Assembly: GCA_003550275.1 (NCBI GenBank)
Contig: QXCW01000002.1
Span: forward strand, 2,430,001 to 2,494,000
Direction of reading: 5' to 3'
Origin: Flavobacteriaceae bacterium MAR_2010_72
Lineage (GTDB): Bacteria; Bacteroidota; Bacteroidia; Flavobacteriales; Flavobacteriaceae
DNA: 64,000 bases
The notes under the pieces are model-generated. The model made no database searches. It worked only from the letters and a program-made list of their open reading frames with translations, and was not told the DNA's origin. A program made the translations under genes and the position numbers. Below, piece after piece: positions 46,235 to 53,617 of the stretch (position 1 is the stretch's first letter; each line of letters starts with the position of its first letter).

Positions 46235-46265
46235 CCATAAAAATTGTTCGAATACCTTAAAAGTT

Positions 46266-46290
46266 GTAACCAAACCAGATTCAAATCGTC
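46266..46290 (+). promoter_or_regulatory. Candidate ECF-type promoter of the serine hydrolase gene
   Basis: TTGTAACC (GTAACC at 46266-46271) followed by CGTC at 46287-46290, 21 bp start to start. It matches the -35/-10 modules seen on both sides of the ECF sigma/DUF6249 gap to within 1 bp of spacing. The ATG is 45 bp further on. Confidence 0.5.
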
Positions 46291-46335: not shown

Positions 46336-47991
46336 ATGAAACTAATTAGTACCAAAAATTTCTTTACTGTTGTATTACTAACTTTTTTAACTTCTTTTAT
46401 TGGTATCAGTCAAAATCTGGAAAAAGAAGTAGATGCATATTTAAGTACCATGTATCCAGCGGATGAGCCTGGGGTTTCCTTTTTAATTGCGAAAGAAGGA
46501 AAACCTATTTACCAAAAAGCTTTCGGTATGGCCAATTTAGAATTGGATGTTCCTATGAATACCAATAATGTGTTCGAAATTGGCTCTATTACAAAACAGT
46601 TTACTGCCATAGCTATTTTAATGTTGGAAGAACAAGGTAAATTAAAAGTAGAGGATGAAATAACAAAATTCATCCCTGACTACCCTACAATGGGAAATTC
46701 CATTACCATCCATCATTTATTAAATCATACTTCAGGAATTAAAAGTTATACTGGCATGCAAAGTTTTATGAAACATGCCAGAACCGATATGACCCCAACC
46801 GAAATCATTGATATTTTTAAAAATGAACCTATGGATTTTAAAACTGGTGAACAGTTTTTATATAATAATTCAGGTTATATTATTCTCGGTCATATTATTG
46901 AAGTGGTTTCAGGCGAATCTTATGCAGACTTTATCAAAACGCATATTTTTGATAAGTTGGGGATGGACTCTTCCTATTATGGTAGCATGAAACGACTCAT
47001 TCCTAACAGAGCTACAGGGTATTCATCCACTCAAAACGGTTATGAAAATTCAGATTATTTAAGTTTGACTTTGCCTTATGCCGCTGGTTCATTAATGTCT
47101 ACCACGACTGACTTATTAAAATGGCAAATGGCTCTTAATACCTATCAACTTATTTCTAAAAGTAGCTATGAAAAAGCAATTCATGGTTCAACTTTAAACA
47201 ATGGTGAACACATACCCTATGGATACGGGCTTGGGGAAAATAACATAAATGGCTCCCCAAGTATTCAACATGGTGGTGGTATTTTTGGCTATACAACTAT
47301 GGGGATTTATTTGCCACAGGAAAAAGTGTATGTAATTGGACTTACTAATTGTGATTGTAAAAACATTACAGGTTCCACTACAAAAATTGCCGCTATGGCA
47401 ATTGGCAAGCCTTTTCCAGACATTAAAGATGCGATTGAGCTGCCTGAAACCGATCTAAAAAAATGGATTGGAGCTTACCAGTTTGATGAAAGCACTATTA
47501 GACATATTACTTTTGAAAATGGACAGCTCTTCAGTCAGCGCGAAGGCAGCACAAAGCTTCCAATCTATCCAATGTCCAATTCAAAATTTATTTTTGAAGG
47601 TGGTGATACTAGCTATGAATTTAGCTCAAAAGACGGAAAAAAATTGGCCAACTTTAGCAATGGAGGAAATACAATTGTTGGAAAAGAAATAGATAAAGCA
47701 GCTCCTGCTGACAAAGTGGCTATTACGCTAGCTCCAGAAATTCTGAAACAATATATAGGCAAATATGAAATTATGCCACAATTTATAATTGAAATTACAG
47801 TAAACGAAAACCAGATATTTGCACAAGCTACAGGGCAGCCACAATTTGAAATCTTTGCTGAAAAAGAAGATTCCTTTTTCCTGAAGGTCGTACCCGCCGA
47901 ACTTATTTTCAACAAAGATGATAAAGGAAAGGTCGTAAGTGCAACTTTAAATCAAGGTGGCCAACAAATGACTGGCTCTAAACTCGACTAG
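46336..47991 (+). CDS. Exported serine hydrolase (class C beta-lactamase-like)
   Basis: 551 aa with signal peptide FFTVVLLTFLTSFIGISQ. The catalytic SxxK is in EIGSITKQFTA, the YxN in FLYNNSGYIILG and the third box in IQHGGGIFGYTTMG. The family includes D-amino-acid peptidases and esterases; beta-lactam hydrolysis cannot be claimed. Residues about 380-550 form a beta-rich C-terminal region (LKKWIGAYQFDESTIRHI, LKQYIGKYEIMPQFIIEI) with two similar units, as in many Bacteroidota homologs. It is alone, preceded by an ECF-like promoter. Confidence 0.92.
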   Translation: MKLISTKNFFTVVLLTFLTSFIGISQNLEKEVDAYLSTMYPADEPGVSFLIAKEGKPIYQKAFGMANLELDVPMNTNNVFEIGSITKQFTAIAILMLEEQGKLKVEDEITKFIPDYPTMGNSITIHHLLNHTSGIKSYTGMQSFMKHARTDMTPTEIIDIFKNEPMDFKTGEQFLYNNSGYIILGHIIEVVSGESYADFIKTHIFDKLGMDSSYYGSMKRLIPNRATGYSSTQNGYENSDYLSLTLPYAAGSLMSTTTDLLKWQMALNTYQLISKSSYEKAIHGSTLNNGEHIPYGYGLGENNINGSPSIQHGGGIFGYTTMGIYLPQEKVYVIGLTNCDCKNITGSTTKIAAMAIGKPFPDIKDAIELPETDLKKWIGAYQFDESTIRHITFENGQLFSQREGSTKLPIYPMSNSKFIFEGGDTSYEFSSKDGKKLANFSNGGNTIVGKEIDKAAPADKVAITLAPEILKQYIGKYEIMPQFIIEITVNENQIFAQATGQPQFEIFAEKEDSFFLKVVPAELIFNKDDKGKVVSATLNQGGQQMTGSKLD

Positions 47992-50051: not shown

Positions 50052-50441
50052 TTAACGCTTATCTAGATAACGTTTCAAGATTGGTGTTTGAATACCGAGC
50101 ATCACTGCAAACATAAGTAAGGTATACATTGTGGTTTGAGAGATTTTAATTCCTGAAAAAAGACTAGAAACTTTATTGAAATTAAGTTTTTCTAACCAGT
50201 TAATTTCAATAGTCTCCCCTATAAACATACTATAACCAATCCAACCAAGTGTTAAGGCGAATAGTGCAATTAATATATTTTTTGGAATCAGAGGCTTATA
50301 CACGGTTACATTAGATTTTGAAGTAACCGATACCTGATGCATTACTTTTGATGTAAAATCGACTGAAGGTGACTCTAAAGATGCATCCTTCATCAATTTA
50401 TCCACAACATGTTCGATATCCTTATTTGTGTTCTTTTTCAT
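50052..50441 (-). CDS. Probable membrane anti-sigma factor
   Basis: 129 aa from the ATG at 50441; an upstream in-frame start at 50465 lies deeper in the sigma gene and is less likely. About 70 cytoplasmic residues (KDIEHVVDKLMKDASLESPS, then FTSKVMHQV) precede two hydrophobic segments (ILIALFALTLGWIGYSMF and MYTLLMFAVMLGIQTPI). Small size, position directly behind an ECF sigma gene with a 20-bp overlap, and a membrane-anchored form suggest an anti-sigma factor. No zinc-binding HxxxCxxC is present. Confidence 0.72.
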   Translation of the reverse strand: MKKNTNKDIEHVVDKLMKDASLESPSVDFTSKVMHQVSVTSKSNVTVYKPLIPKNILIALFALTLGWIGYSMFIGETIEINWLEKLNFNKVSSLFSGIKISQTTMYTLLMFAVMLGIQTPILKRYLDKR

Positions 50442-51009
50442 AATACTCAATAAGTTCTGGTTCAATTCGTTCTTTTAAAATACCTGCCAACTTTTTTCTG
50501 GCTCTAAACAGTTTCACTTTAACATTGTTAGGAGTTAAACCTATAATTGATGAAATTTCTTCTAAAGACTGATCTTCGAAATAAAATAATGTCAGTAAAA
50601 AACTATCATCACTTGGCAATTGATTTAAACACTCCTGAATGGCTTGTTTACGTTCTTCTTCAACCAAATCATCAAAGGCATTGTTGCTTGTTTTTATATA
50701 ATTTGATGTGTGATTGTTGATTTCAACTTCATTATATTTTCGTTTATTGCTTTTAATTTTATCCAAACATGAATTGTAAGCCACTTTATAAATCCAGGTT
50801 GAAAATTTTGAACCTCCTTTGAATTTATCCAACGATTTAAAAACCTTTATAAAGGTGTCTTGTGCAACTTCTTCAGCCTCTTCTCTATGCTTCATCATGC
50901 GCAGCGCCAATGTAAACACTAAATCTTTATAACGGTCAACTAACACTGCAAAAGCATTAGTATTGCCGTCAATTACTTGATTGATGATTATTTGGTCGTT
51001 GCTGGTCAT
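50422..51009 (-). CDS. ECF-family RNA polymerase sigma factor
   Basis: 195 aa. Region 2 is VDRYKDLVFTLALRMMKHREEAEEVAQDTFIKVF (key part AEEVAQDTFIKVFKSLDKF), with STWIYKVAYNSCLDKIK for region 2.4. Region 4.2 is LEEISSIIGLTPNNVKVKLFRARKKL. It would direct polymerase to GTAAC/CGTC-type promoters. The upstream gap holds two such facing modules, one reading into this gene (autoregulation) and one into the DUF6249 gene. The next gene, a likely anti-sigma factor, overlaps it by 20 bp. Confidence 0.95.
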   Translation of the reverse strand: MTSNDQIIINQVIDGNTNAFAVLVDRYKDLVFTLALRMMKHREEAEEVAQDTFIKVFKSLDKFKGGSKFSTWIYKVAYNSCLDKIKSNKRKYNEVEINNHTSNYIKTSNNAFDDLVEEERKQAIQECLNQLPSDDSFLLTLFYFEDQSLEEISSIIGLTPNNVKVKLFRARKKLAGILKERIEPELIEYYEKEHK

Positions 51010-51020
51010 TTTAAAAGTAA

Positions 51021-51046
51021 GACGACCATTTTGTAATTAGGGTTAC
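51021..51046 (-). promoter_or_regulatory. ECF-type promoter reading into the sigma gene
   Basis: On the minus strand TTTGTAACC (GTAACC at 51046-51041), 14 bp, GTCGTC (51026-51021). The predicted start of transcription is within about 10 bp of the sigma ATG at 51009, giving a very short leader. It is a near mirror copy of the module at 51080-51105. Confidence 0.65.
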
Positions 51047-51079
51047 AAACTTTTAAAAGAAAAATAATCAAGTCATTTT

Positions 51080-51105
51080 GTAACCTAATTTCAAAAGCTG
51101 TCGTC
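51080..51105 (+). promoter_or_regulatory. ECF-type promoter reading into the DUF6249 gene
   Basis: TTTTGTAACC (GTAACC at 51080-51085), 14 bp, GTCGTC (51100-51105), 47 bp before the ATG at 51152. Spacing is identical to the facing module, and the spacers also share TAATT and CAAAA. Confidence 0.65.
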
Positions 51106-51151
51106 ATAAGCAATAAACACATTAAAATTAATCAATTAAAAACAAACAGTT

Positions 51152-51496
51152 ATGGAAGCATTAATAGTTTTTATCATCTTTGGTTCAATATTCGCTATTG
51201 CCTACTTGTACTTTTCAACACGTAATAAAGAACGTCTGGCCTTAATAGAAAAAGGTGCCGATGCCAGTATTTTTGTCAAAGGAAAGCGCGAACACACCGC
51301 TCCTATTTGGAAAGTACTTATTTTAAATCTTGCCCTTTTACTTATGGGTATTGGTTTGGGTACTTTTATCGCTTCATTGCTAGACACCTACTCTACTTTA
51401 GATAATGATGCGGTTTATCCTGCAATTATTTTCTTTATGGCTGGTATAGGCTTGTTTATTGGTTTCCATATGACTAAAAATTTAGATAAGGAATAA
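51152..51496 (+). CDS. DUF6249-type small membrane protein
   Basis: 114 aa. A membrane helix at the start (LIVFIIFGSIFAIAYLYF) is followed by STRNKERLALIEKGADASIFVKG, the family mark, then two further helices (VLILNLALLLMGIGLGTFIA and AIIFFMAGIGLFIGFHM). It diverges from an ECF sigma gene and carries a matching ECF-type promoter, so it is a likely member of that regulon, perhaps an envelope-stress effector. The function is unknown. Followed by a strong terminator. Confidence 0.82.
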   Translation: MEALIVFIIFGSIFAIAYLYFSTRNKERLALIEKGADASIFVKGKREHTAPIWKVLILNLALLLMGIGLGTFIASLLDTYSTLDNDAVYPAIIFFMAGIGLFIGFHMTKNLDKE

Positions 51497-51514
51497 CATT
51501 TAGCAACCAACCAG

Positions 51515-51547
51515 AAAAACTGCTATCTTAATTGATAGCAGTTTTTT
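51515..51547 (+). terminator. Terminator of the DUF6249 gene
   Basis: Perfect stem AAAAACTGCTATC / GATAGCAGTTTTT with a 6-nt loop and further T residues, about 20 bp after the stop. Confidence 0.92.
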
Positions 51548-51603
51548 TATGCTTACACATTTAGTAAAGAATTGTATCTTTAAAGCAATAAATAATTGAA
51601 CAC

Positions 51604-52936: not shown

Positions 52937-53617
52937 CTACTCTACTTCAAAATCAAAATATGTGTCTGGAAATGGTTCATCGCGCAATGTAAAATGCCAC
53001 CATTCTTGAGGATAATTTCTAAATCCATGTTTTAGCATTATACTTTGTAATAACTGTCTGTTTTGTTTTTGGGCTTCGGTAATCTGCTCATATGCAACCC
53101 AAGACTGTTCACCAAAAAAATCGTAAGGACTTCCCATATCTAAAGGTTCGCTTGTTATACCGTCAATAATAGTCAAATCCAAAGTACTACCTCTACTATG
53201 TCCAGATCGAGATGCGATGTAACCATCCCGAAATAAAAAACGCTTATCAACATCTGGATAAAACTCTTGTTTGTTAATGGTATCGGCTAAATCTTTGGCC
53301 CATTCAATAAAATGATTTACCGCTCGCTGTGGTCGGTAACCATCATAAACCTTTAAACATAAATTTTGCTGCTGAAGTTCATTCTGCACTTTTTTAAGGG
53401 CATTCGCTGTTTCAAAAGTAACAATCAATTTGTTGGCTTTGTAACCTTCAATGGTATCCCCTACGAAATTATGACTGGAAAAATACCTCAATTCCACATC
53501 CAAATCCGCAATCACATCTTTAGCATAAACAAATCCTTCTGGAAGTTGAGCCTCATTAAGACTGTTGAATGCAAAAGTGAACGCTACTAAAAGACATATG
53601 ACAATTTTGTGCTTCAT
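52937..53617 (-). CDS. D-alanyl-D-alanine dipeptidase (M15 family, VanX/DdpX-like)
   Basis: 226 aa with a signal peptide (IVICLLVAFTFAFNSLNEA), so periplasmic. Zinc and catalytic motifs are SGHSRGSTLDLTII (SxHxxGxxxD), PQEWWHFTL (ExxWH) and the arginine in YDGYRPQRAV. These match D-Ala-D-Ala dipeptidases. It stands alone without vanHA or a VanRS system, so cell-wall peptide recycling is more likely than antibiotic resistance. It is divergent from alkB across a 33-bp gap that holds a perfect inverted repeat. Confidence 0.93.
   Translation of the reverse strand: MKHKIVICLLVAFTFAFNSLNEAQLPEGFVYAKDVIADLDVELRYFSSHNFVGDTIEGYKANKLIVTFETANALKKVQNELQQQNLCLKVYDGYRPQRAVNHFIEWAKDLADTINKQEFYPDVDKRFLFRDGYIASRSGHSRGSTLDLTIIDGITSEPLDMGSPYDFFGEQSWVAYEQITEAQKQNRQLLQSIMLKHGFRNYPQEWWHFTLRDEPFPDTYFDFEVE

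Follow-up and report, generated by a model that had tools for sequence, protein, structure and literature searches.

In the window, as we call the whole stretch of 64,000 nucleotides analysed here, a gene for an ECF sigma factor and a gene for a small membrane protein of the DUF6249 family diverge from a gap of 142 bp, measured from the sigma ATG (51009, minus strand) to the DUF6249 ATG (51152, plus strand). The pattern GTAACC-N14-GTCGTC is present twice in this gap, at 51046–51021 on the minus strand and at 51080–51105 on the plus strand. Are these two copies promoters by which the sigma factor could raise both its own synthesis and that of the DUF6249 protein, and what part might the latter play?

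The genes on either side of the gap

The sigma factor gene (50422–51009, minus strand) encodes a protein of 195 amino acids. Pfam models Sigma70_r2 (67.9 bits, residues 23–90) and Sigma70_r4_2 (57.3 bits, residues 122–174) both match above cut-off, and with regions 2 and 4 only the protein is classed as an ECF (group 4 sigma-70) factor. It scored 113.5 bits against the NCBIfam superfamily model TIGR02937 (cut-off 42.9); among the 25 of 99 NCBIfam matches listed, no equivalog or subfamily model was above cut-off. The nearest solved chain is SigW (5wuq, E 1.2e-24).

Overlapping the sigma gene by 20 nt is a gene for a protein of 129 amino acids (50052–50441, minus strand), with N-terminal helices followed by two hydrophobic helices (peaks at residues 56 and 104). 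This protein had no match in Pfam or NCBIfam, and a profile search against solved structures gave no relative at E up to 1. Relatives with a complete reading frame were found at 89 of 104 sigma loci. Pairwise distances among the sigma factors and among these neighbours co-vary (r 0.79, and 0.70 after removing the DUF6249 distances; 87 loci, species kinship being ignored). Position and co-variation with the sigma factor together make the 129-residue protein a probable anti-sigma factor. Its position, its two N-terminal helices and its two hydrophobic helices would suit one of class I. Class I anti-sigma factors are described as rare beside Bacteroidetes ECF factors, at 6%, in passages of PMC7406223.

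The DUF6249 gene (51152–51496, plus strand) encodes 114 amino acids and matches PF19762 with 60.1 bits (cut-off 33). Its three hydrophobic helices have peaks at residues 3, 55 and 87, and the first is followed by a motif, RNKER.ALIEKG, whose residues are invariant or nearly so in 38 aligned sequences. A fold search with this protein gave a best E of 1.6. AlphaFold2 models of the two membrane proteins are of low to middling confidence; they place helices tentatively at residues 4–20, 27–42, 54–74 and 102–128 of the probable anti-sigma factor (pLDDT 69.8, pTM 0.34, low confidence), and at 2–38, 52–80 and 85–113 of the DUF6249 protein (pLDDT 76, pTM 0.45). The gene is followed by a strong terminator-like hairpin (51513–51548, plus strand) with a 15-bp stem, −19.2 kcal/mol, z −8.1 and a run of T. 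A consensus terminator scan did not report this hairpin, perhaps because its A and T runs pair.

Two promoter-like units and their conservation

With their flanking bases, the two copies of the pattern form predicted promoters reading into the sigma gene (51018–51047, minus strand; TGTAACC at 51041–51047, N14, GTCGTC at 51021–51026, then TTA) and into the DUF6249 gene (51079–51108, plus strand; TGTAACC at 51079–51085, N14, GTCGTC at 51100–51105, then ATA). Both sites are exactly as written in the original prediction, which had the promoters facing one another; in fact they stand back to back, with the −35 boxes inside, the −10 boxes outside, and both pointing outwards. The 31 bp between the −35 boxes (51048–51078) are rich in A and T and might act as a shared upstream (UP) element. 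This stretch measures 22–34 bp in 82 of 86 gaps (drawn from the 94 with both sites, longer ones being omitted), and its mean G+C content in these 86 is 15%, against 35% for the window. Bipartite AAC and CGT cores, fixed spacing and a position upstream of a sigma gene are the marks of a positively autoregulated ECF promoter, and all are found here; the best explanation of the gap sites is a putative ECF promoter consensus, TGTAACC-N14-RTCGTC-WTA.

Conservation was scored in loci chosen by similarity to the sigma protein, 104 in number, comprising 94 from the 100 genomes of one search and 10 loci of another. Four loci in which tblastn found no DUF6249 were dropped (L037, L042, L043 and L044, the last of which has DUF6249 by Pfam), leaving 100, the window included. 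Scoring demanded TGTAAC and then a −10 box at one of three spacings, and TGTAAC is hence invariant by construction. The DUF6249-side site was kept in 99 of the 100 gaps, always at the exact spacing, and the sigma-side site in 95, of which 94 were at the exact spacing. Spacing was thus the same in 193 of 194 sites, the sole exception being the sigma-side site of L034, which is one base shorter. Five loci were scored without a sigma-side site: in L063, L109, L121 and L125 the first T is replaced, and in L085 the site extends beyond the scored stretch. The base after TGTAAC is C in 99 of 99 DUF6249-side sites and in 98% of sigma-side sites. At the common spacing every −10 box ends in GTC, preceded by C in 93% (DUF6249 side) and 81% (sigma side); the sigma-side spacer shows little base preference beyond A/T. 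The −10 box is altered in some lineages, L118 and L120 among them, which have AAGTC. Loss of the −10 box C among 94 loci affected both arms in 5, one arm in 13 and neither in 76, so that the arms tend to change together (kinship ignored). A supplement of the six remaining genomes, in which GTC was counted as the −10 core, gave a divergent DUF6249 gene and a DUF6249-side site in 6/6 and a sigma-side site in 5/6, the sixth again being without the first T. The original prediction staked itself on the modules being kept in orthologous gaps, and they are kept.

The search was also made from the side of the DUF6249 protein, taking the best 80 of 564 loci (named genomes), a set that says little on distant DUF6249 proteins. 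A divergent sigma gene was found at 78 of these 80, being absent in L381 and L391; 61 of the 78 pairs had both strict sites, 10 had one and 7 had none. The genera represented include Psychroserpens, Winogradskyella, Polaribacter, Tenacibaculum, Lacinutrix and Flagellimonas, which most likely places the window in the Flavobacteriaceae. Among close relatives, therefore, the pairing of the two genes is constant. Three paralogous sigma genes (L044, L335 and L336) likewise have a divergent DUF6249 gene, at 44–70 bits, and mirrored boxes: TGGTCAC/GTGACCA with GTCTAA in L044 and L335, and GTAAC-N18-CGTC on both arms in L336. The sigma–DUF6249 layout seems, from these copies, to have been duplicated as a unit. 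The three pairs are natural specificity variants, with GTGACC/GTCTAA boxes or N18.

Patterns of this kind are common at one or two mismatches, which might speak for a chance similarity of two 12-base patterns. Allowing up to two mismatches, GTAACC-N14-GTCGTC has 4 matches in the window against 1.26 expected, and 4 of 100 shuffles reach 4; near matches to the looser GTAAC-N15-GTCGTC are not enriched across the genome of 3.41 Mb, with 27 in total at up to one mismatch against 63 in a backward-read control. The exact pattern, however, occurs in the window only as the gap pair, and the looser one has two perfect matches in the genome, which are again the gap pair. A position matrix built from relatives likewise found only the gap pair in the window (37.5 and 31.8 bits), its next match of 8.8 bits lying inside the random range (20 random sequences, maxima up to 14.7). 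The pair is thus unique in the genome in its exact form and is kept in about a hundred genomes, and chance is refuted by this conservation to the point where it can practically be set aside. Across 45 related genomes TGTAACC-N15-TCGTC has 99 matches. Of these, 81 fall in the sigma–DUF6249 gap, and the 18 outside it show no excess over a backward control (25). For TGTAAC-N17-CGTC-NTA, 71 of 93 matches are in the gap and 22 outside, against 29 in the control; a spacing one base longer gives 7 matches, all outside the gap.

The two sites had also been described as the arms of a long imperfect inverted repeat. Such arms do exist here (51018–51049 and 51077–51108, 27 nt apart), but beyond the boxes they are not conserved in relatives: the spacers of the two arms are about as alike within a locus (mean 0.38) as between loci (0.36). 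The window's own spacers are unusually alike when shifted by 1 nt (0.77, a value that 0.5% of cross-locus pairs reach). Arms of 32 nt with 72% complementarity would suit an operator for a dimeric regulator, or a stem, in place of two promoters. We consider this very improbable, as the distance between the sites varies from 54 to 312 (most often 64) and the spacers are not palindromic in relatives; what stays fixed is how far the −35 box lies from the −10 box within each arm, and the sigma ATG stands at a fixed distance from its own arm. The inverted repeat is a consequence of the two predicted boxes themselves.

On the sigma side, 11 nt (51010–51020, minus strand) separate the −10 box from the start codon. 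In 90 of 95 loci the first in-frame ATG lies 9–12 nt past the −10 box, which is what a real promoter would lead one to expect, and three more loci have a second ATG at 11. ECF transcripts start some 5–10 nt after the −10 box, so that the sigma message would carry few or no leader bases; the start originally proposed, at 51013, leaves about 4 nt before the ATG. The sigma mRNA is thus probably leaderless or nearly so. Leaderless messages make up 5.5% of those mapped in Flavobacterium psychrophilum, according to passages of PMC9723704.

On the other side, the predicted leader between the −10 box and the DUF6249 ATG (51106–51151, plus strand; 46 nt) is A-rich, conserved and unfolded (MFE 0). Its length is 46 nt in 43 of 99 loci and 40–48 nt in 82 of 99. 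A 22-mer from the leader occurs exactly once in this genome; at up to three mismatches in five genomes it has 24 matches, 5 of them DUF6249 leaders, against 7 in the control, and it is not wholly specific. A leader mini-ORF was considered and rejected. In 50 of 99 loci a short peptide (MNTLKLIN and the like) could start at an ATG 7 nt past the DUF6249-side −10 box, but the window has ATA there, 38 of 99 loci are without an ATG over the first 14 nt, and the differences look like A/T drift, not codon constraint.

A second ECF system and candidate targets

A search of this genome for TGTAAC-N16/17-CGTC gave 17 matches, and the backward control gave 7. The exact N17 form accounts for four, namely the gap pair and two sites inside genes. 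At N16, promoter-like sites lie upstream of a second ECF sigma gene (L258, G000:C2 near 2188421), where TGTAACA and CGTC are one base closer than in the gap, and upstream of genes which by Pfam names encode a MacB-type permease (L238), an ABC ATPase (L260), DUF4870 (L252), DUF456 (L233) and rhodanese (L261) proteins. By resemblance, all of this group except the rhodanese recur in one or both of two other genomes searched. The N16 spacing is common to a group of envelope-type genes in three genomes. The ECF-type SM6 promoters of F. psychrophilum have a CGT −10 box, as here, and those mapped precede an ECF sigma/anti-sigma pair, a rhodanese-related protein and an ABC ATPase (passages of PMC9723704); these targets resemble the N16 group of this genome, compared with which the spacer of the gap promoters is one base longer.

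Two ECF systems thus appear to share their predicted boxes and to differ by one spacer base and by the base after GTAAC, which is C in one and mostly A in the other. Cross-reading between them is possible on these grounds. The gap promoters could even be read mainly, or also, by another ECF factor such as the product of L258, since all the promoters of the second system, its own included, share both boxes, and overlapping ECF regulons have been suggested for F. psychrophilum in passages of PMC9723704. We think this unlikely: the second system has GTAAC-N16-CGTC, mostly with A as the base next to GTAAC, whereas the gap has N17 and C; exact N17 sites in the genome outside the gap are confined to the two intragenic ones, and N17 is kept in the gaps of relatives with the single exception noted above. 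A one-base spacer difference within one cell would allow a clean test of what keeps apart sigma factors that share their boxes.

Candidate targets beyond the gap were sought among the remaining matches. The motif alone shows no regulon, there being no genome-wide excess outside the gap. Of 35 distinct outside-gap matches, 20 were fetched, picked by eye as promoter-like and hence a biased sample; 16 of them start 48–82 nt before an ATG and the other 4 are inside reading frames. By resemblance, 9 of the 16 precede serine hydrolases and 4 precede DUF4440-like proteins. One protein of each kind was compared with Pfam. PF00144, the beta-lactamase fold, and DUF3471 match the window's hydrolase; the L185 protein has DUF4440, its DUF3471 score of 24.0 bits being below the cut-off of 29.3. 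The window's hydrolase gene (46336–47991, plus strand) is a candidate member of an ECF regulon. Upstream of it lies TGTAACC-N13-ATCGTC (46265–46290, plus strand), with the same boxes and a spacer one base shorter (k=16), owing to which the position matrix misses it.

An unbiased set of hydrolases was collected by protein similarity to that of the window, giving 68 loci in 60 genomes. GTAAC-N(k)-CGTC lies within 150 nt upstream in 44 of the 68, at k=16 in 15 and at k=17 in 29, and 24 loci are without the exact motif. Fifteen spacings from 10 to 24 were tested and none of the 13 others gave a match; the motif was also absent from the opposite strand of the first 55 loci. At the search cut-offs 29 genomes have both this hydrolase and the sigma gene, and in 12 of them the two are no more than 10 kb apart; in G410 the hydrolase directly follows DUF6249 on the same strand.

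In a first control, with hydrolases taken at E 1e-55, the motif was about as frequent without the gap sigma factor (10 of 15 loci) as with it (28 of 40). Ten of the 14 genomes counted as being without this factor had a diverged gap sigma gene (in one case split) beside a divergent DUF6249 gene. After this correction and the addition of 13 more loci, 29 of 29 spacing-17 hydrolases and 13 of 15 spacing-16 hydrolases were in genomes with the gap sigma factor, a weak control in that most hydrolase-bearing genomes have this factor. The two spacing-16 exceptions are in G246 (80% complete, doubtful) and G136 (99% complete, real); G136 stands against a simple link between hydrolase and gap sigma factor. 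The window's hydrolase may belong to either sigma factor. At G306:C12 the sigma gene (L329/L334) is split over two reading frames, by assembly error or decay, and the adjoining serine hydrolase (L281) is without the motif.

For the DUF4440-like proteins, the spacing-17 motif was found before only the 4 closest of 19 loci. These four are L182, L185, L194 and L195 (the same genes as L300, L297, L299 and L298). The recurrence of DUF3471 serine hydrolases and some DUF4440 proteins as candidate targets would suggest an envelope- or wall-related response in the Flavobacteriaceae.

Proposed circuit and the role of the DUF6249 protein

We propose that a membrane-tethered ECF sigma factor raises its own operon and the divergent DUF6249 gene through two back-to-back ECF promoters, and consider this highly probable from the sequence comparisons. 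That the sigma factor activates both had been predicted at the outset, and the conservation of both modules makes it a strong inference. At rest, the two-helix membrane protein encoded together with the sigma factor would hold it at the membrane. On an envelope signal, the anti-sigma factor would release it, and sigma factor with RNA polymerase would fire both divergent promoters. One promoter would yield more sigma and anti-sigma factor from a nearly leaderless message, and the other the DUF6249 protein from a one-gene message with a conserved leader. An envelope signal is plausible, with two hydrophobic segments in the probable anti-sigma factor and three in the DUF6249 protein. Autoregulation is a common principle; the form seen here is unusual and very constant.

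The DUF6249 protein is most likely a feedback partner of the anti-sigma factor in the same membrane, acting as a second brake or a sensor, a role to which we give about an even chance. Its distances follow those of the sigma factor weakly (partial r 0.16 with the anti-sigma distances removed, 87 loci, against 0.70 for sigma and anti-sigma factor). This weak coupling argues against a tightly fitted sigma partner, and the constant pairing argues for one. The protein might instead be an effector that protects or reshapes the membrane and has no regulatory part, the mirrored promoters merely co-inducing it. This is a somewhat doubtful but substantial alternative, to which the weak tracking of sigma distances lends support, as do the better conservation of the DUF6249 protein (mean pairwise distance 0.365, against 0.648 for the anti-sigma factor) and the enzymes encoded by the other likely regulon genes. 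It accords poorly with the pairing with this one sigma family at nearly all of the best-scoring DUF6249 loci, with the DUF6249 copies that the three paralogous sigma genes have of their own, and with the variation between genomes of the genes beyond DUF6249. Pfam assigns DUF6249 no function; that it pairs so constantly with one sigma family among close relatives offers a direct route to a test.

The feedback role can be extended, tentatively, to a widespread ECF module of the Flavobacteriaceae. In it the DUF6249 protein would be an obligate second membrane regulator, coupled to the sigma factor by mirrored promoters and by opposite translation modes (leaderless and leadered), and one spacer base would separate the nearly private regulon of the module from a second ECF regulon that uses the same boxes. 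If so, the paralogous copies would extend this scale of spacings, as L336 does with N18.

In Bacillus subtilis, yhdK sits in the sigM operon; the DUF6249 gene, unlike yhdK, is divergent from its sigma gene. The possible likeness lies in restraint by two proteins, the ECF factor SigM being held in check by the anti-sigma pair YhdL and YhdK, which form a complex (passages of PMC6827917). The nearest published layout that we found is that of phyR and nepR-ecfG in the general stress response of the Alphaproteobacteria, where, according to passages of PMC8103513, there are likewise two units, with phyR divergent from nepR-ecfG, promoters of the same response and self-amplification. The likeness is one of layout; the divergent partner there is the response regulator PhyR and here a small membrane protein. 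EcfO-Reo, Das1-Dma1 and CirY-CirZ of Bacteroides and Phocaeicola are also sigma/anti-sigma pairs of Bacteroidota ECF factors; when cirZ is deleted, cirY and its neighbours go up. The passages on these pairs (PMC13114119, PMC13088901) make no mention of DUF6249. Reo and Dma1 are described there as reaching across both membranes. The probable anti-sigma factor here, with 129 amino acids and two hydrophobic segments, does not by length and hydropathy belong with such dual membrane-spanning proteins (Dma/Reo). Searches of the open-licence PubMed Central literature gave no description of a sigma–DUF6249 system, and the single paper they gave that names DUF6249 deals with plant kinases.

Further along the window, a gene for a D-Ala-D-Ala dipeptidase (Peptidase_M15; 52937–53617) is convergent to the module, and in many relatives a similar-looking gene directly follows DUF6249.
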